Assembly (NCBI RefSeq): GCF_002000365.1
Contig: NZ_MVBK01000010.1
Span: 6,773-42,432, forward strand
Direction of reading: 5' to 3'
Source: Thioalkalivibrio denitrificans
Lineage (GTDB): Bacteria; Pseudomonadota; Gammaproteobacteria; Ectothiorhodospirales; Ectothiorhodospiraceae
Length of the DNA stretch: 35,660 bases
Numbering within the stretch: position 1 is the stretch's first letter; each line of letters opens with the position of its first letter. This document shows, in pieces, positions 6,353 through 35,578 of the stretch. The position numbers and the translations under genes were made by a program. The notes under the pieces were generated by a model. It made no database searches, was not told the DNA's origin, and saw only the letters and a program-made list of their open reading frames with translations.

Positions 6353-7588
6353 TCACTGGTCGCGCCTGCATCGCGAAAAGAGATGGATGGTGTAGACACC
6401 CGCCGCTATCGAGGCAAGCCCGGATAGGGCGAACATGTGGCTGGGCGCCGCTCCCAGCGGGCCGGTGAGGATCCAGAAAAGTACCGGTGCCACGAGCATG
6501 GCTGAAAAGGCCAGGAAGTTGCTGGCGGCGATGAACCGGGCGCGCCGACTGGCGGGACTCTTGTTCTGGAGGTAGGCGGACATCGGCACGATAAAGAATC
6601 CGGCGCCAACGCCCAGCAGGAAGGACAGCGCGAGGGTTGCCGCATAGCTGCCGACCGCGAACAACATGAGAAAGCTGAACACGCCCACGGCAATCATCCC
6701 CGCCGGCACATGCCTCATCTCAATCCGCTCTCCAGCCAGGTGGCCCGCAACGATGCTGCCGATGCCGATACCCACTGCCAGTACGGTCAGGATGATGCCG
6801 GTGTGCATTTCGCCGACCTGCAGCTGCAGCTCGGCAAACAGCGGTACGTTGAGCTGGTACAGGGTTCCCAGCGCCCAGAACAAGGCGATTCCCAATACGA
6901 CCAGGAACAACACACGGAAGTGACGAATCTCTCCGATGGCCGCCCTGACATCGGCAAAAGCATTGAGCCGGAATGGGGCTGGATCATCCTGGGCTTCGGT
7001 GGGTGTGATAAACAGGCTGGAGACCAGGCCCAGGATGGAAAAGAGCACGATGACCATCGCAGGAATCCACAACGCATCTCCGGCCCACTCCATGATGAAT
7101 CCGGCCAATGCAGTCCCCAGGATGATCGCGAGGAAGGTCCATAGCTGCATGTGCCCATTGGCTCGCGACAATTCCTCCTCGCGCACGATCTCCGGGAGGA
7201 TGCCGAATTTCACCGGACTGAAGAACGTGCTTTGCAGCCCCATCAGAAACAGGGTGATGAACAGACCGGTCATGTTATTCAGTATCAGCATCACCGCCGC
7301 GATCATGAGGATCCCCGCCTCAGCCAGCCTGGTACTGATGATCACGGCCTTCTTGCTGTAGCGATCTCCGATAAATCCCGCATAGGGAGAGAACAGCACG
7401 AATGGAAGCAGGAATATGAAGCCGACAAGGCTGTAGTAGAACGTTTCTGCTCCATCGGCGACGTAAACACGAATCGCGAGAAAGATGAAGACCAGCCGAA
7501 AGTAATTGTCATTCAGGGCATTGATGAACACCGTCACCATCAAGGCCGCGAAGCCCTTGGTTCTGATGTCGGATGGACTAGCCCGCAT
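6353..7588 (-). CDS. LplT-like major facilitator superfamily transporter
   Basis: 411 residues from the ATG at 7588, with around twelve hydrophobic stretches and the MFS loop motif GDRYSKK between helices 2 and 3. The N-terminal FINALNDNYFR matches the GAFNDNxFK signature of LplT and of the MFS part of Aas-type fusions, so lysophospholipid flipping is a reasonable but unproven role. The oddity is the start: the ATG and next two codons lie in the end of a 180-bp palindromic repeat (7580-7759), so the native 5' end may have been replaced. In-frame TTG/ATG at codons 16-17 is the only nearby alternative and would remove part of the conserved first helix. Confidence 0.88.
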   Translation of the reverse strand: MRASPSDIRTKGFAALMVTVFINALNDNYFRLVFIFLAIRVYVADGAETFYYSLVGFIFLLPFVLFSPYAGFIGDRYSKKAVIISTRLAEAGILMIAAVMLILNNMTGLFITLFLMGLQSTFFSPVKFGILPEIVREEELSRANGHMQLWTFLAIILGTALAGFIMEWAGDALWIPAMVIVLFSILGLVSSLFITPTEAQDDPAPFRLNAFADVRAAIGEIRHFRVLFLVVLGIALFWALGTLYQLNVPLFAELQLQVGEMHTGIILTVLAVGIGIGSIVAGHLAGERIEMRHVPAGMIAVGVFSFLMLFAVGSYAATLALSFLLGVGAGFFIVPMSAYLQNKSPASRRARFIAASNFLAFSAMLVAPVLFWILTGPLGAAPSHMFALSGLASIAAGVYTIHLFSRCRRDQ

Positions 7589-7759
7589 ACCTCACCACCC
7601 TTCTACTGCGGCCGCCGATCTGCGCGCTGTGACGGGGCGTGCTCGCTTCAGCCGGCTTGACGTAGTGCCGGCTACGCCGGCGCCGTCTTCCGTTCCGCGC
7701 GCCCCGCCACAGCGGCATCTCGACACCCTCGCTACGAACGGTGGTGAGATATGCGGGCT
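7580..7759. repeat. 180-bp palindromic MITE-like repeat, copy A
   Basis: Exactly 180 bp with about 20-bp terminal inverted repeats (AGCCCGCATATCTCACCACC and its complement; one end differs by a base). It also contains an inner inverted repeat and a CGTAG/CTACG centre. Flanking bases make CTAGCCC at one end and GGGCTAG at the other, compatible with a TA target duplication. It is inverted relative to copy B at 18081-18260, differing at about 16 positions and with no indels. No transposase is encoded, so it would be non-autonomous. It lies between the divergent MFS and gpmA genes and overlaps the MFS start codon. Confidence 0.85.
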
Positions 7760-7779
7760 AGCCCCGCATATCTCACCGG
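7760..7779. repeat. Partial inverted end of the same repeat, abutting copy A
   Basis: Immediately after copy A the sequence reads AGCCCCGCATATCTCACCG, a second end of the same element facing the first. Together they form a near-perfect palindrome centred on CTAG at about 7760. This looks like the remnant of a second insertion or of a circular or tandem junction. Confidence 0.7.
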
Positions 7780-15649: not shown

Positions 15650-18600
15650 TCAGGCGTCCTTGGCGTCCTCATCGCCATGGGCCTGTTCCGGCATCGCTTC
15701 GTCGGCCCAGGTGCCGCGTCGGCACAGCACGCCCATGGTGCAATAACGACACGCCGCCTCGTCCCCCCAGGCCGGCATGGGATGGCCGGAGCGCAACCGA
15801 TTCACCATGTCCAGCAGCCGCTCGCCCACCGCGTCACGGAGTTGCTCCAGGGTCTCGCCTTCCAGACTGGCGCCCGAAGCCACCTTGTCGCGGTCAAGAT
15901 GCAGATATTCGACCCGAGCGGTTTCCGGCAGCAGCATGGCGTAGGTGGGCAGCTGCACGGCCTCGCCCTCATCCACCTCCACCTGGCGGGGCGGCGTGCC
16001 GGTCTTGTAGTCGATCACGGCGGCGCCTGCCGGGCCGCGATCCACGCGATCCAGCCGGCCTTTCAGGACCAGGGCATCCCGGAAGGGCTGCTGCAACTGC
16101 GCTTCCGTGGCATCCACCCGCCACTCGGCCGCCCGGGCGATGGCCCAGTCGAGATAGGCCGGAATCAGGGCGCGCCAGCGGGCCAGCCAGCCCCGGTGCA
16201 TGAAGTTGTCCTCCAGGTCGCGACGAAACACCGCCGCGCTGATCTCCTCCAGCAAGGCCTCGGCCACGGGACGCGTGCCCTCATCCAGTGGACCCCGCCA
16301 CGGACCGGGCAGCCACGCAACGCCGCCGTGAAAGGCCTGCAGGCACAGGTGCACCCGCTCACCGTACTCCGCCTTACTGAGGGCTTCGGCCAGTTCCTCC
16401 GGGGGCGCAAGGCCCAGTCCCCGGGCGGCATAGAAACGGTACGGGCAGTCGATCAGATCCTGGTGGGCACTGGCGGAGAGCTTCGCGGGCAGGCGGGCAG
16501 GAGGGAATGGCGGTGCCGGTCGGCGGGGCGGGGGTGGCAGCGGCCGGTCATCCGGACTCGTCACCCGGGCTTCGTCGCGGTTCAGCCAGTCGGCGAGGGT
16601 GTCGTCGTGCAGGGATCGGGCCCAGGCCAGTTCGTGGAAGGCGTTGATCAGCTCCACCCATGCTCCGGGGCGCTGGGGCCCTTGGTCACCTTCCCGCTGC
16701 CAGGTGATCAGTACACGGGGTGCCGCCTCCAGCAGGCGCCGGAACCGCCCCCATTGGCGCTGCACGCGATCATGCCAGGCCTCCAGCCCCAGGGCATGGC
16801 GCACACCGTCGTTGAACACGGGCCGCACCGGTTCGTGTCCGGGCAGGTGCGCCCGGTCCGCGGAGGCGATGATCAGTGCGTCGAACCGGGCCAGCCCGGT
16901 CTCCGCGAGGCTCAGCAACTGCACGGGCGCGGGCCGCGGATGCGCACGGAAGTGACGGGTTTCGAGCACGCGGCCGAGCCAGGTCCGAAACGCCCGCCAG
17001 TCCATGGTCAACGGGCGCCCGCCAAGGTCGGTCTCCATGGCGTCCAGTTCCTCCAGCAGGCGCTGGCCAGCGGGGTCGGCCTCAAATGCCGCGTGCATGC
17101 CCAGACGCTTCAGGCTCTCGCGCAGTGCCGGGAATATGCGTGCCGCATCTCCCTCGGGTGCGTTGACCAGCTCCTTCAGCGGTGCGGCCGCGTGTTCCAG
17201 GGCGTCCAGCAGGGCACTCACCGCGCGGGCACCCGAGTCTCCCGCCGGACCCAGCCGGGCGCTGCGCTGTTGCAGGTGAGTGCGCATGCGTTCCAGCCCT
17301 CGGGGGATGTTCTCGCGCAGCATCACGTCCTGCTCGAGTCGGTACACGGCGAACAGGTGTTCCTCCGCAGGGCGCTCCGGAAACACGAACGGGGACTTGA
17401 GCACATCCATGAGGGGCTGATACGCGAAGTCCTCCTCGATGGCCTCCAGCCAGCGCTCCAGTGCCGAGGCCGCGCGCGTGGTGGACAGCGCCCAGCCTCC
17501 TGGATCGTCTAGGTCCACGCCGGCCCGCTCCAGCAGGGCGCGCAGACGCCGGGCGAGACGCCGGTCATCGGTGATCACGCCGATGTGCCGGCAGCCTTCA
17601 ATCAACCATGAGCGGATGCGTGTATCCACGGCCGCAGCCTGGGCTTCGGCGTCCTCGGCGGCCAGCAGTGCGAGGCGGTCGACGGCGGGACTTGACGGGT
17701 GGGAACTGGCGAATGCCAGGGCGCGCTCGCGAAGCGGTGGTCCGTCGGTGCGAAACACTTCGTCCAGGAAGGCTCCGAAGGGTGGATCCGGGAGTGCGGT
17801 GTCGGGGGATGTGTCCGGCAGTCCTGGCGGGGTCGGTGTCGGCACCAGCCACCGGGCGTGACCCCGCAGCGCAAGGCCGTTCAGCAGCGCCGCCTCCGCG
17901 GGCAGGACCTCGTCGTAACCGACCACGTAGATGGCATCGGATGCGAGACCATCCGGATCCAGCGCCGCCAGTGCGCGCAGGTAGCGGGCATCCGGGTCCT
18001 CGCGCCCCTCGGCGTGCTGCTGGCGCAGCCATGCGTGCCACAGTGTATGCACCATGCGCGCCTCGCGGCCCAGCGGCTCCAGCCCGCATATCTCGCCACC
18101 GTTCGTGGCGAGGGCGTCGAGGCGCCGCTGTGACGGGGCGCGCGGAGCGGAGGGCGGCGCAGGCGTAGCCGACACTACGTCAAGCCGGCCGGAGCGAGCA
18201 CGCCCCGTCACAGCGAGCGGATCGGCGGCCGCAGTAGAAGGGTGGTGAGATATGCGGGCTTGACAGGCTTCTGTTCCGGCCCCCAGTCCGTAGGCATCAC
18301 GCAGTTGTGCAACGAAGTCCTCGTACTCCGGCGGCGGTGAGGCGTTTCCCAGTGTGAGCTCGCGGAAGAGCTCCAGCAGCGTGTCAACCATTTGCCACGG
18401 GTCGCGGTCGCCGAACAGCTGCGGGTGTTCGCGAAGGGCCTCGAAGAGCATCAGCTCCCGGCCGTGTTCTCCGAGAACGGGCGTTTCCTCGGAGGCGCGT
18501 TCAAGCACCCACTGGCGCAGCGAGGTGATGCGCAGCCCCAGCAGGGCATCGAAGCCCCCCTCCCGGGCGTGGCTGAGGAGCAGCCGGCGCAGGCGGGCGT

Positions 18601-18748
18601 CGGCATGTGCGCGGGGGCGCAGGACGGTGACGTGGGTGAGGTCGGGCAGTCGCCTCGACTGGTCCTCGACGATGCGCCGGACCAGCCAGGCGAGTGGATC
18701 GGCGCCAGGGGCGGCACCCTGTACCCGGGCGTCCTGTCCCGGGCCCAT
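15650..18748 (-). CDS. AddB-like PD-(D/E)XK nuclease with Fe-S cluster motif and an in-frame repeat insert
   Basis: 1032 residues from ATG 18748, which sits just past the fdxA stop and suggests coupling; an in-frame ATG at 18793 would overlap fdxA. The C-terminal third carries GRLDRVD, VIDYKTG (~915) and the QLPTY helix typical of RecB-family nucleases. Four cysteines can ligate an Fe-S cluster: one in DCPYRFY (~767), then C1000, C1003 and C1009 in ACRYCTMGVLC. The N-terminal two thirds look like the degenerate helicase-like part of AddB; no intact Walker A was recognised. Residues ~163-222 are encoded by a 180-bp palindromic repeat (18081-18260); without it the protein would read TEACQ-EPLGREARM uninterrupted. 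The expected partner AddA is not in the window. Likely role: DNA end processing in recombinational repair. Confidence 0.85.
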   Translation of the reverse strand: MGPGQDARVQGAAPGADPLAWLVRRIVEDQSRRLPDLTHVTVLRPRAHADARLRRLLLSHAREGGFDALLGLRITSLRQWVLERASEETPVLGEHGRELMLFEALREHPQLFGDRDPWQMVDTLLELFRELTLGNASPPPEYEDFVAQLRDAYGLGAGTEACQARISHHPSTAAADPLAVTGRARSGRLDVVSATPAPPSAPRAPSQRRLDALATNGGEICGLEPLGREARMVHTLWHAWLRQQHAEGREDPDARYLRALAALDPDGLASDAIYVVGYDEVLPAEAALLNGLALRGHARWLVPTPTPPGLPDTSPDTALPDPPFGAFLDEVFRTDGPPLRERALAFASSHPSSPAVDRLALLAAEDAEAQAAAVDTRIRSWLIEGCRHIGVITDDRRLARRLRALLERAGVDLDDPGGWALSTTRAASALERWLEAIEEDFAYQPLMDVLKSPFVFPERPAEEHLFAVYRLEQDVMLRENIPRGLERMRTHLQQRSARLGPAGDSGARAVSALLDALEHAAAPLKELVNAPEGDAARIFPALRESLKRLGMHAAFEADPAGQRLLEELDAMETDLGGRPLTMDWRAFRTWLGRVLETRHFRAHPRPAPVQLLSLAETGLARFDALIIASADRAHLPGHEPVRPVFNDGVRHALGLEAWHDRVQRQWGRFRRLLEAAPRVLITWQREGDQGPQRPGAWVELINAFHELAWARSLHDDTLADWLNRDEARVTSPDDRPLPPPPRRPAPPFPPARLPAKLSASAHQDLIDCPYRFYAARGLGLAPPEELAEALSKAEYGERVHLCLQAFHGGVAWLPGPWRGPLDEGTRPVAEALLEEISAAVFRRDLEDNFMHRGWLARWRALIPAYLDWAIARAAEWRVDATEAQLQQPFRDALVLKGRLDRVDRGPAGAAVIDYKTGTPPRQVEVDEGEAVQLPTYAMLLPETARVEYLHLDRDKVASGASLEGETLEQLRDAVGERLLDMVNRLRSGHPMPAWGDEAACRYCTMGVLCRRGTWADEAMPEQAHGDEDAKDA
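18081..18260. repeat. 180-bp palindromic MITE-like repeat, copy B, inside the nuclease gene
   Basis: It begins AGCCCGCATATCTCGCCACC and ends GGTGGTGAGATATGCGGGCT, so the terminal inverted repeats differ at one base. Inner arms GCTGTGACGGGGCG (18127-18140) and CGCCCCGTCACAGC (18201-18214), and a centre CGTAG/CTACG (18164-18179), let the whole element fold back. Its length is a multiple of three and the frame read by the nuclease gene has no stop, so translation continues through it. The flanks (CC and TG) show no TA duplication. It is inverted relative to copy A. Confidence 0.9.
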
Positions 18749-18750
18749 GT

Positions 18751-19074
18751 TCAGCGTTCCAGGTACTTGAGTTTGTCCGGCTTGCCGTCCCATTCCTCAG
18801 CGTCGGGAGGTGCTTCCTTGCGGGTGGTGATCACCGGCCACTGCCGCGACAGCTCCGCGTTGAGCTCCAGGAACGCCTCCTGTCCCTCCGGGATGTCGTC
18901 CTCGGGAACGATGGCCTCCGCGGGGCATTCCGGTTCGCACAGGGTGCAGTCGATGCACTCCTCCGGGTCGATCACGAGGAAGTTGGGGCCCTCGTGGAAG
19001 CAGTCAACCGGACACACCTCGACGCAGTCGGTGTACTTGCACTTGATGCAGTTTTCGATGACGACGAATGTCAT
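18751..19074 (-). CDS. fdxA: Seven-iron ferredoxin FdxA
   Basis: 107 residues, like Azotobacter ferredoxin I, with nine cysteines offset by one: C9, C12, C17, C21, C25, C40, C43, C46 and C50. They appear as [17 protein letters not shown] and [12 protein letters not shown]. This set binds one 3Fe-4S and one 4Fe-4S cluster. The conserved acidic C-terminal extension (~55-107) is present. The start is ATG 19074 behind AAGGGAGA. The protein is a cytoplasmic electron carrier; fdxA is often found next to mutS in gammaproteobacteria, but here bcsA and bcsS lie between. A 22-bp palindrome (19089-19110) lies in its leader/promoter region. The nuclease gene follows after two bases. Confidence 0.95.
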
Positions 19075-19277: not shown

Positions 19278-20006
19278 TCACCAGTGTCCCGTGAATTCCA
19301 CCCCGACGTATCCCCGCCGGCTCTCGTCCCGCTGCTCGCGGATGCCCGCCCGAATGCCCGCCTGAACAGTGGAGGATAACTGCAGGCCGGCGAGGAAGGC
19401 TCCGTACTGGACGGCCCGGTAGTCCGGGTCGCCCTGCAGGATCAGTTCCGGCCCTGCGCGCAGGCCCGGCCCCACGTCCATGCCCAGGCGGGCCCGGGTC
19501 CAGTAGCCTCGCTGGCCGAACACGTAGCTGCCCAGTAGCCCCAGTTCGGCGGATTCCGAGACGGGTTGGTTGTATTCCACCTGTGCCCGAAGACGCCATT
19601 GGGCGCCGCGCGCGGCGCTGTCGGGGTCGTCGGGGCTCAGGGTCGTGTCCCGATAGAGGATACCCATCGTGGTGGAGAGTTGGCCGGACCCGACGGGCGT
19701 GACATAGCCCAGGGCCGCCTCGGCGCCGAGTCCTTCGGCCTCGATACGCCGACCGTCGCTGTCGTAGCGGTAGGTCAGGTAATCCACCCAGTAGCGCTGG
19801 ATAAACCCTTCCCCCAAATGACCGCCGAACGCGGGCATCAGCAGGCCCGCGTAACTGTAGCTGCTGCCCGGGGCGAGTTCGGTGCCCGCCAGCCAGAGCC
19901 GTTCCTGGGCCGAGGCCGCGGAGGCCGCCAGCAACAGGGCCGTCAGGCAGCAGCGGAGACCGATTCGCGATGTCGCGGATCGGCGTCGGTTTGCACGTCT
20001 TGCCAT
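19278..20006 (-). CDS. bcsS: BcsS-like cellulose biosynthesis protein, probable outer-membrane barrel
   Basis: 242 residues. The start is ATG 20006 with GAGGA five bases upstream, which makes it overlap bcsA by 64 bp. An arginine-rich N-terminus and hydrophobic stretch (~17-33, ending ASAASAQ) form a signal peptide. The mature part alternates short amphipathic strands rich in Tyr/Gly and ends in VGVEFTGHW, with a terminal aromatic residue as in outer-membrane barrels. The overall pattern resembles the BcsS family found near bacterial cellulose synthase genes. Position directly after bcsA supports this. The precise role, perhaps export or anchoring of the polymer, is not established. Confidence 0.75.
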   Translation of the reverse strand: MARRANRRRSATSRIGLRCCLTALLLAASAASAQERLWLAGTELAPGSSYSYAGLLMPAFGGHLGEGFIQRYWVDYLTYRYDSDGRRIEAEGLGAEAALGYVTPVGSGQLSTTMGILYRDTTLSPDDPDSAARGAQWRLRAQVEYNQPVSESAELGLLGSYVFGQRGYWTRARLGMDVGPGLRAGPELILQGDPDYRAVQYGAFLAGLQLSSTVQAGIRAGIREQRDESRRGYVGVEFTGHW

Positions 20007-22294
20007 GTGTCCTCGAGATCGAGTTCTCTGACAGATGTCAGGTAAAGGGGGGCGACGGGACTGTCCAGGACCTCGCCAACGCCGGTTCTGGCGATGAAGC
20101 TGGCCTGGCGGGTGCGTGTGGTGAGCCGGCCGTGCAGCAGTGCGGCCTCCGGCAGTGGCTCGAAACTCAACAACTGATGGGGGTCATCCACGGATGCCGG
20201 CAGGGACAGCAGCCCCAGACTCTGGCCGGGCTGACCCTCCACCTCATAGGTGATGGCGTTCCAGTGTGCCTCGCCGGGCACTTTGCCGCGCCCGCGCCGG
20301 AACGGATCGGCCAGCCATTCCAGCGGGGTGCGGCTCTGTTCGCTCAGGCTGTGCAGATGCCACTGCAGGTCGGAGCCGTAGAGGAACAGCTTGAGCAGAT
20401 CGCGCTCGACCCGGGTCGGCCAGATGAACTCGCAGCCTACGGCGCGTGTGTAGCCTGACTCCACCCCTTCCCCAGGGATGCGTGACATCACCCGGGCATC
20501 GAGCGTGCGCTGACCCGAGGGCAGGGCGAGGTCCATGGTGACGACTTCACCCGGCTGGAGGGATTCGGTCATGGGGCCGTAGAGGCGGCATCCGGACGAG
20601 GAGATGTCGTCCACCGTCGCCAGCTGCCGCCCGCCCGCGAGATGAAGCCGCGCCGGCAGGGGGATGGGGAACCGGTACTCGCCGCGGCGCTGGTCGCCCC
20701 GGTTCAGGGTGAACAGCACCACCGACAGGGCCAGCGCCAGGTTCAGGCTCGCCCACATCACGTTGACCACAGCCGCCTCCACGGGAAGGTGGTTGTCAAT
20801 GGCCATGAAGAGTGCAAGACCCACGGGCAGGGCAATGGCGTTCAGCGCGAGGATGATGAACTGCGGAGTGAGAAAGCGATAGGTCTCGCGGGTACGGGAC
20901 AGGCCCTTGGGTGTCACCGCGAAGCGCAGGGCGCGCCGGAACAGGGCGAGCGTAGCCCAGGCAAAGGCGGCGAAACGGCTCATGTTGTACTGCTCGATCA
21001 GGACCGAGCGCCCGTAGCCGCGACCCAGTTCCTCGAACAGCCAGAAGGAGAGCACGTAGTAGGGGATGAAGCGCACGAAGAACTCCGCACCCAGCGCGGT
21101 GATGGGCATCACGCCGGTGAGCAGCACGATCACCGGGGCCACGTAGAAGATGGCCTTCTGCCAGCCGTCGAAGTAGGTGGACATGGAGGCGAAGTAATTG
21201 AGCCGCTGGGCGAGCGTCAGGCCGCGGGCAGTCAGCACGCCTTCCCTGCGCCAGACCTGCATGGCCCCCTGACCCCAGCGGATGCGCTGCTTGAGGAACG
21301 GCACCACGTTGGAGGGCGCCAGTCCGAAGGCCAGGGATTCCGGGTGATAAACGGAGCGGTAGCCCAGCTTGTGCAGGCGCAGGGAGGTGTGCAGGTCCTC
21401 CGTCACGGTTTCCGTGGCGAAGCCGCCGATGCGCTCCAGCGCGTCGCGCCGCACCACCGCGCAGCTTCCGCAGAAAAAGGCGGCATTCCAGGTGTCCTTG
21501 CCCCGCTGGATCACCCGAAAGAACAGGGACTGCTCGGTCCAGACGAAGCGCTTTCCGGGCTGGCGGCGGTGCTGGTAGGAGTCCAGGTTGAAGAAGTCCT
21601 GGGGGGTCTGTACGAAGGCCACCTTCTCGTCCTGCACGAAATAGCCCAGGGTGCGTTCCAGGAAGTGGCGCTGGGGCGCGTGGTCGGCGTCGAACACGGC
21701 GATGAAGTCCGCGTCCGTTTGGGCCAGGGCATGGTTCAGGTTGCCCGCCTTGGCGTGGGTGTTGTCGGCGCGCGCCAGGTAGTGGGCGCCCAGTTCCTCG
21801 GCCAGGGCCTTCATGGCCGGGCGGTTTCCGTCGTCCAGCAGCCAGGTCTCGTGGGGGTAGTCCATGTGCAGCGCGGCGATGAGCGTGTTGCGCACCAGGT
21901 CCTCGGACTCGTTGTAGGTGGGGATGAACACGGCCACCTTGAGCCCGTCCGGTACGGGCGGGCTGACCCGTCTGCGCAGACGCCAGGTCATGAAGATGTG
22001 CAGCAGGGTGGCGAGAAAGCCGAACAGCTCTGCCCCGTAAATCACGAGGGAGAAGGTCAGCGCGTCGGGATTCAGACTGCCCGCACGCCAGCTCAGGTAC
22101 CACAGGGCGACGCCGATGAAGATGAAGACCAGCAGCTTGCGGGCGGGATTCAGCTCCTCGTAATCGTGGGTTGGGGGCTTCGGATGTCTCACGGTGCGGG
22201 ATTGCCGGGCAAGGGTAGAGGCCGTGTTTGCGTTGGTATGCTTTGCCAGTCGCAAGAGTCGGCAGTCGCCCGCGTACTGCTGGGCGGTAGCCAC
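19943..22294 (-). CDS. bcsA: Cellulose synthase catalytic subunit (GT2 + PilZ)
   Basis: 783 residues from GTG 22294; a GTG at 22192 (VRHPKPPTH...) is an equally plausible start because no clear ribosome site precedes either. The family-2 glycosyltransferase motifs are intact: DDG 154-156, DAD 202-204, TED with catalytic D300, and QRIRW 336-340. Hydrophobic helices flank the catalytic loop (~53-70, 80-102, 380-400, 405-420, 475-500, 507-530). A PilZ domain follows with R537xxxR541 and D563xSxxG568, so synthesis should be switched on by cyclic-di-GMP. The protein would polymerise UDP-glucose across the inner membrane. No bcsB, bcsZ or bcsC is present nearby; only bcsS follows. Confidence 0.9.
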   Translation of the reverse strand: MATAQQYAGDCRLLRLAKHTNANTASTLARQSRTVRHPKPPTHDYEELNPARKLLVFIFIGVALWYLSWRAGSLNPDALTFSLVIYGAELFGFLATLLHIFMTWRLRRRVSPPVPDGLKVAVFIPTYNESEDLVRNTLIAALHMDYPHETWLLDDGNRPAMKALAEELGAHYLARADNTHAKAGNLNHALAQTDADFIAVFDADHAPQRHFLERTLGYFVQDEKVAFVQTPQDFFNLDSYQHRRQPGKRFVWTEQSLFFRVIQRGKDTWNAAFFCGSCAVVRRDALERIGGFATETVTEDLHTSLRLHKLGYRSVYHPESLAFGLAPSNVVPFLKQRIRWGQGAMQVWRREGVLTARGLTLAQRLNYFASMSTYFDGWQKAIFYVAPVIVLLTGVMPITALGAEFFVRFIPYYVLSFWLFEELGRGYGRSVLIEQYNMSRFAAFAWATLALFRRALRFAVTPKGLSRTRETYRFLTPQFIILALNAIALPVGLALFMAIDNHLPVEAAVVNVMWASLNLALALSVVLFTLNRGDQRRGEYRFPIPLPARLHLAGGRQLATVDDISSSGCRLYGPMTESLQPGEVVTMDLALPSGQRTLDARVMSRIPGEGVESGYTRAVGCEFIWPTRVERDLLKLFLYGSDLQWHLHSLSEQSRTPLEWLADPFRRGRGKVPGEAHWNAITYEVEGQPGQSLGLLSLPASVDDPHQLLSFEPLPEAALLHGRLTTRTRQASFIARTGVGEVLDSPVAPLYLTSVRELDLEDTWQDVQTDADPRHRESVSAAA

Positions 22295-35539: not shown

Positions 35540-35561
35540 ATGCGGTACCGAGATATGGGTA

Positions 35562-35578
35562 TGAGATATGCGGGCTAG
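35562..35578. repeat. Solo end of the 180-bp palindromic repeat
   Basis: TGAGATATGCGGGCTAG is identical to the terminal inverted repeat of the elements at 7580 and 18081, here without the rest. A shorter GAGATATG lies just before it (35550-35557). Either a decayed copy or the trace of an excision. Confidence 0.6.

Follow-up and report, generated by a model that had tools for sequence, protein, structure and literature searches.

The window analyzed here, a stretch of 35,660 nucleotides of Thioalkalivibrio denitrificans DNA, carries a 176-bp hairpin element in frame within a nuclease gene, a second copy of this MITE at the 5' end of a transporter gene, and solo copies of its terminal repeat. 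The features are listed by position in the window and by strand.

6353-7588, minus strand: MFS transporter gene, its first ATG within the terminal repeat of MITE copy 2
7582-7757, plus strand: copy 2 of the MITE, bordered by CTAG at 7578-7581 and 7758-7761 and situated at the 5' end of the MFS gene
7763-7777, plus strand: solo terminal repeat CCCGCATATCTCACC, immediately adjoining copy 2
15650-18793, minus strand: AddB-like PD-(D/E)XK nuclease gene, 1047 aa including a 60-residue insert (ORF, Pfam/NCBIfam matches, congener alignment)
18079-18082, no strand: 4-bp flank CCAG, the same as the empty site (CCAG; CTGG on the other strand) in three congeners
18083-18258, minus strand: MITE copy 1, 176 bp, in frame within the AddB-like gene, peptide ARISHHPSTAAADPLAVTGRARSGRLDVVSATPAPPSAPRAPSQRRLDALATNGGEICG
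18259-18262, no strand: 4-bp flank CTTG on the other side of copy 1, a single base off CTAG
35560-35574, minus strand: solo terminal-repeat-like end TATGAGATATGCGGG, then CTAG at 35575-35578

The element and the AddB-like gene

The original prediction placed a 180-bp palindromic repeat at 18081-18260. A genuine near-complete hairpin repeat lies there, but those bounds include two extra bases on each side, and the element proper spans the 176 bp of 18083-18258, starting with CCCGCATATCTC, ending with GAGATATGCGGG, and flanked by CCAG and CTTG. The inverted ends of the MITE have the consensus CCCGCATATCTCACC, with CTAG as the usual 4-bp flank, and one end of copy 1 is a single base off this consensus (CCCGCATATCTCGCC). 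When copy 1 was folded end to end as single-stranded DNA, the energy was -74.5 kcal/mol (z -9.2), a value that none of 200 shuffled sequences equaled. The second copy, claimed at 7580-7759, was present with the more precise bounds given above; it is 91% identical to copy 1 and has the opposite orientation. We read the solo repeat at 7763-7777 as a remnant or a nested end. CTAG is rare in the window, with 13 sites compared to 113 expected from base composition and 22.6 expected from trinucleotides; two of the 13 adjoin MITE copy 2, and one adjoins the solo end at 35560-35574. The first ATG of the MFS gene is directly preceded by GGTGGTGAGGT, a Shine-Dalgarno-like sequence, and the location of this start in copy 2 suggests that MITE ends could act as portable translation starts. 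A search of the four congeners, run without a positive control, provided no MFS homolog for comparison of the start codon.

The AddB-like ORF encodes 1047 aa from its first ATG, or 1032 aa from a later ATG, and is free of stops across the element. On the basis of alignment to three congeners, the insert comprises exactly 60 residues, 178-237 of the 1047-aa reading. The junction in the window, AYGLGAGTEAC(Q...60 residues...G)LEPLGREAR, corresponds to AYGLGGDDSAC-LEPLGREAR in congener G004, and the DNA at the join is TGC CTG GAA. The ORF and the congener alignment together confirm the predicted insert of exactly 60 codons, in frame and without a stop. The protein has a PDDEXK_1 match (8.4e-38) well above cut-off, and the motifs IDYKTG and CRYCTMGVLC, with putative catalytic and Fe-S roles, are legible in the translation. 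The nuclease part of the predicted identity was thereby upheld, but the protein missed the AddB equivalog cut-off of TIGR02786 (165.5 bits versus 486.5), and we use the AddB label loosely. A solved structure for the AddB-like protein was not found. Next to the AddB-like gene, 19278-22294 of the window contains a BcsS match and a cellulose-synthase-like glycosyltransferase that has a PilZ domain.

The insertion site in the AddB-like gene was readable in four genus genomes (the window's, G002, G003, and G004), with G001 providing a C-terminal piece only, and the insert was found in the window's genome alone. The gene is uninterrupted at the site in all three congeners read, whose proteins are 65-78% identical to that of the window, and the insert is likewise missing from L036, a homolog in another family with 36% identity; no distant homolog with the 60 residues was encountered among these. 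The repeat is thus confirmed as a mobile-type insertion in the AddB-like gene. The dN/dS ratios of the insert-bearing gene (0.20 against G002, 0.27 against G004, and 0.27 against G003) resemble those of the three insert-free pairs (0.17-0.27), and therefore the gene is still under purifying selection.

Further copies, host proteins, and frame use

The prediction that more copies would exist was amply borne out. A search of the window's genome (G000) with the 180-bp query returned at least 84 matches, at least 12 of which covered almost the whole query with an identity of 90% or higher; the remainder comprised one copy at 82% identity, fragments, and hits to the complementary strand of the palindrome. 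Loci read from the five genus genomes (G000, G001, G002, G003, and G004) contained at least 73 paired-end copies. Copy counts refer to the loci examined, with the best 40 candidates per genome scored and at most 100 pattern matches listed, rather than to whole genomes. Across all loci we collected 151 unique copies in which both ends had at most two mismatches from the consensus end (the search criterion), and 101 of these are 176 bp long. The pattern of two exact 16-base ends was matched by 84 stretches in 16 assemblies, as counted by accession prefix. These were mostly MAGs labeled Ectothiorhodospiraceae, Thioalkalivibrio, or Gammaproteobacteria, together with T. sulfidiphilus ALJ17; MAGs labeled Acidobacteriota and Gemmatimonadetes were also present, according to record labels for which binning errors are possible. 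In the plasmid and phage collections no record was covered to 80%, and the best E-values among the matches listed were 0.1 and 0.05; a search of viral contigs for the 19-base end gave no matches. Presence/absence polymorphism with clean empty sites was observed at the AddB-like site and at sites compared between G003 and G004. The window's genome is a 167-contig draft, for which an assembly artifact might be considered, but separately assembled genomes show the same element, flank anatomy, and in-frame hosts, and one insertion site in a DnaE2-like gene is common to G000 and G001, and we regard the chance of an artifact as negligible.

The peptide LARISHHPSTAAADLLAVTGR...RLDVVSATPAPSS...PSQRHLDALATNGGEICGL was found in long ORFs of the translated loci, and Pfam matches showed the element to be present in frame in several unrelated proteins. 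An insert is located in the second DnaE (DnaE2-like) of G000 and also in that of G001, where two are present (210 and 261 bp). In G003 the hosts are a ribonucleotide reductase (closest solved structure, B12-dependent), a KsgA homolog, a DUF255 protein, an outer-membrane efflux protein, a UvrA paralog, and a methyltransferase. Further hosts are a peptidase M1 in G000 and a NuoG-like protein (L037) in G038, from another family, with the latter case resting on the position of the insert between two domain matches. No Pfam match was obtained for 15 of the 30 scanned ORFs. The Maf and ABC_trans_aux cases (in MAGs) and a GT2 case in G000 (L004) are possible N-terminal extensions and were excluded from the demonstrated inserts; L200 sits at a contig end. 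An initial assignment of the DnaE insert to the essential replicative polymerase was wrong, as the host is a second DnaE and the main DnaE (1189 aa) is encoded elsewhere. The two MITE copies in the DnaE2-like gene of G001 (L171/L235; 206 and 257 bp) are both in frame in one protein; other, repeat-like sequence stands in place of their middle and may be a REP pair, and one of the two sites is shared with the window's genome. Empty sites for the UvrA paralog and the B12-type reductase were identified in G004, G000, and G002, those for KsgA in G004 (clean) and in G000 and G002 (weak local identity), and those for the two DnaE2-like sites in G002.

Decay of the host genes, which would then be open by chance, appears very unlikely to us as a general account. 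Loss could be tolerated for some hosts, as the second DnaE, the UvrA paralog (a large protein encoded beside a UvrA of about 990-1070 aa), and the B12-type reductase (which adjoins another reductase) each have another relative in the genome. Against decay, the AddB-like gene has a dN/dS as low as 0.20 with its insert in place, the shared DnaE2-like insert occurs in two species, and the interrupted KsgA is the sole strong family match in G003, where the other rows were weak partial matches.

The frame used by coding copies was determined by removing the element in silico and choosing the frame across the join by the codon usage of both flanks; the openness of the occupied gene played no part in this choice. 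Among the 73 copies, one was at a contig edge, 10 had no candidate frame, and 62 were scored, with 12 passing the threshold of at least 0.08 on both flanks. All 12 copies with strongly coding flanks were open, had lengths of 3n, and used one common frame of six. At lower thresholds the frame was open in 13/13, 13/15, and 13/17 copies. The DnaE2-like copies of G000 and G001 occupy one site and count as one event, leaving 11 insertions. Under a quarter-chance null (two orientations times two CTAG phases without an in-frame TAG), the probability is about 2e-7 for 11 events and 6e-8 for 12, consistent with the earlier suggestion that copies in genes keep a 3n length and an open frame more often than chance. 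The coding score was trained on seven window gene segments including the AddB-like gene; the AddB-like case is therefore not independent in this test and rests on its homologs instead. We conclude that the simplest cause of the single-frame use is selection against the other frames.

An insert that is absent from the final protein, because the ribosome skips the mRNA hairpin or because the segment is cut out, is highly improbable. The transcript has a strong predicted fold (-113 kcal/mol, z -8.4), and ribosomes are known to bypass inserted hairpins in other systems. A skipped element, however, would need neither an open frame nor a 3n length, whereas all 12 coding-flank copies show both, and an Rfam scan of the window at gathering scores found nothing but a tRNA. 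The segment is probably translated. Its charge-hydropathy value (H 0.465 versus a boundary of 0.432) does not classify it as disordered. Differences of the genic copies from the consensus numbered 10, 26, and 16 at codon positions 1, 2, and 3, with the third position not favored, so that no constraint on the inserted residues was seen at this sample size. The segment would then be tolerated and have no job of its own.

We also considered whether the element itself has been selected for an open frame in order to live inside genes, as an adapted coding palindrome like those of Rickettsia. The genus consensus has one of six frames open (LARISHH...GEICGL), and four lineages that diverge by up to 34% all have this frame open in their consensus. 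Among the 176-bp genus copies this frame is open in 51/52 (10/10 genic and 41/42 non-genic), and elsewhere in 45/47, 5/5, and 2/2. The differences between lineages, however, are even over the three codon positions (7/5/6, 18/22/20, and 13/12/12). New stops also match expectation, with 1 compared to 0.9 expected in the 42 non-genic genus copies and 3 compared to 2.4 in 47 SLSJ copies, genic and non-genic; the open frame is simply poor in codons one step from a stop. The codon-position and new-stop counts thus gave no sign of selection on the element's own frame, and we judge such adaptation quite unlikely.

Transposon family and target sites

The flanks and ends of the element point to a transposon origin. 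The 4-bp flanks are equal in 77 of the 151 copies, and equal flanks of 2, 3, 5, 6, or 8 bp occur in none. CTAG is present on both sides of 75 of the 151; in a later set of 155 it was found on both sides of 76, on one side only of 54, and on neither side of 25. As 176 + 4 = 180 bp, an insertion of the 176-bp form adds exactly 60 codons. Three loci, all in other genomes, share these ends with PF13701-bearing IS1380 elements. In L193, a Stutzerimonas plasmid, CTAG and CCCGCATTTCTCAC lie to either side of a gene annotated as an IS1380 transposase, with near-identical ends; in L137, a MAG, the exact end CCCGCATATCTCACC is followed by a broken IS1380 gene, whose PF13701 match (E 1.4e-8) falls narrowly short of the cut-off; and in L186, CTAG-flanked ends surround a PF13701 fragment. 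For the IS1380 transposase family PF13701, there was no match in G000, G001, G002, or G004, and G003 contained two fragments at contig ends with surroundings that lack this end. A PF13701 match was present in 8 of 16 genomes reached via element-bearing loci, with G003 again among the 16. With no PF13701 transposase found in the window's genome, assignment of the mobilizing enzyme to the IS1380 family is an inference from the ends shared with other genomes. The element looks like a non-autonomous IS1380-type transposon, an orphan MITE in this genus. IS701 (PF13546) was rejected as the parent after no match was found in any of the five genus genomes. No intact IS with these ends was found in the loci examined, where pairs of ends at 420-3500 bp were neighboring MITEs or chance ends, with the exception of L137, which led to the broken IS1380 gene.

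The empty sites present a puzzle. For eight insertions compared between G003 and G004, the sites read CTGG (reductase), CTGG (KsgA), CTGG (UvrA paralog), TTAG (L074), CCAG (L103), CTTG (L213), CAAG (L166), and CTAC (L215); seven of these were compared at 94.8-97% identity between the two genomes and L215 at 87%. None of the eight is CTAG, each being one base off, and six of the eight occupied partners have CTAG on both sides. For comparison, of 19 ordinary CTAG sites in G003, the G004 counterpart is CTAG at 10 and CTGG at 5, and in the reverse direction 10/15 are CTAG. The retention of 0/8 at empty sites differs from 10/19 with p 0.011 and from 10/15 with p 0.003. Other sites were read apart from this set: the empty site of the AddB-like gene is CTGG (CCAG on the other strand) in three congeners, which are more distant, and the DnaE2-like empty sites are CCAG and, at a poorly conserved place, CGGG. 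Four pairs were left out, namely L004-L106 (68%, gapped), L074-L245 (72%, gapped), L156-L299 (79%, another genome), and L174-L230. The site reads CTAG in the last pair, but a remnant of the element persists in L230, and the site is therefore shared rather than empty. Three copies, of which two are young, have TTAA on both sides, and in three young copies CTAG on one side is paired with a different tetramer on the other.

Eight non-CTAG sites out of eight are not expected of a plain CTAG duplication, and the 4-bp flank may therefore not all derive from the target. Either the element uses sites that have just turned into CTAG and are short-lived, or it brings CTAG along. The specific proposal that the ends of an IS1380-type transposon themselves bring CTAG and overwrite near-matches such as CTGG, CCAG, TTAG, CTTG, or CAAG is unlikely; the TTAA/TTAA copies fit a plain duplication, ordinary CTAG sites are themselves short-lived, and the sample is small. 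If it were true, the element would be a portable 60-codon cassette able to enter the common context of a Leu codon CTG followed by Gxx, beyond the rare CTAG. Transposition of piggyBac involves 4-nt overhangs, and the empty sites suggest an unusual, possibly piggyBac-like target reaction. According to PMC10045372, IS1380 is a distant relative of the eukaryotic piggyBac, and the two share 4-bp duplications and CC..GG termini. The element resembles IS1380 in its CCC...GGG ends and putative 4-bp duplications but lacks a transposase gene, and no partner was found in the window's genome.

Proposed explanation and relation to known in-frame repeats

A non-autonomous IS1380-type MITE that yields tolerated in-frame inserts of 60 codons is the best explanation and, in our assessment, a highly probable one, built on the observed transposon anatomy, empty sites, single frame used, and purifying selection on the AddB-like host. 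An IS1380-family transposase, now not found in the window's genome, would have moved the MITE into CTAG-like tetranucleotides. The net gain per insertion would be the element plus 4 bp, which for a 176-bp element would give a clean 60-codon insert. The element ends and the TAG of CTAG would close most phases, and genic insertions in those other phases would truncate the protein and be removed by selection. The rarer open-frame insertions in tolerant places would be translated as an extra segment of 60 residues and would persist. The in-frame copies look like tolerated survivors, and the insert-bearing repair proteins and other hosts seem, from their sequences, to keep working.

In-frame palindromes are already in print for several bacteria, and the 176-bp element is a new family among them. 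In-frame MITEs are reviewed in PMC2229807 and PMC10969869, and in-frame REPs in PMC3733652. PMC10969869 and PMC2229807 describe the RPE as short hairpin repeats of 105-146 bp that are both intergenic and in frame in unrelated proteins, with a conserved peptide; a Wolbachia counterpart appears by title in a reference list of these papers. Compared by description, both the RPE and the 176-bp element are hairpins that occupy intergenic sites and also occur in frame within unrelated genes, where they encode a conserved peptide. The RPE belongs to a different lineage, and Table 1 of PMC2229807 gives its target duplication as "?"; the 176-bp element, in contrast, has a transposon family, 4-bp flanks, and a visible 176 + 4 = 180 arithmetic. 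The predicted likeness to Rickettsia thus holds for the outcome, but shared descent is unsupported, the element being tied to IS1380 transposons. PMC2229807 also describes ERIC and the 107-bp Correia element as MITEs that carry open frames and form in-frame fusions with genes; both have TA at their termini in its Table 1, whereas the parent of the 176-bp element looks IS1380-like. In PMC3733652, GTAG/CGTC REPs of 20-40 bp are described within the uvrA, dnaE2, and recBCD genes of a range of bacteria, among them a uvrA of Thioalkalivibrio; unlike REPs, the 176-bp element has transposon ends and 4-bp flanks. A literature search on miniature inverted repeats in Thioalkalivibrio led to work on REPs, and no published account of the 176-bp element was found among the matches listed for Thioalkalivibrio MITEs, IS701/IS1380 MITEs, and in-frame fusions, a body of literature in which subscription journals were mostly not included.

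This case shows how mobile DNA that encodes no protein can lengthen bacterial proteins. It brings the in-frame palindrome puzzle, best known from the obligate intracellular Rickettsia, to the genus that includes Thioalkalivibrio sulfidiphilus, and here the transposon family can be named, the empty sites are clean, close relatives differ in individual inserts, and several hosts (DnaE2-like, UvrA-like, KsgA, and AddB-like) are open to assay. Replication and repair genes are prominent among the hosts (AddB-like, DnaE2-like, UvrA paralog, and reductase). An unrelated element is thereby added to the impression, given in PMC3733652, that inserts gather in DNA synthesis and repair genes. This gathering is now testable; protein length is an evident confounder, as most of the hosts are long proteins, which may explain the prominence. 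As a minor observation, the reductase orthologs differ in their inserts: that of G003 bears the 60-codon MITE, that of G004 (L260:1174-4587) has an intein-like insert (LAGLIDADG_3, 4.4e-23; Intein_splicing, 3.5e-7, below cut-off), and the matches in G000 and G002 cover the family with no gap of this kind.
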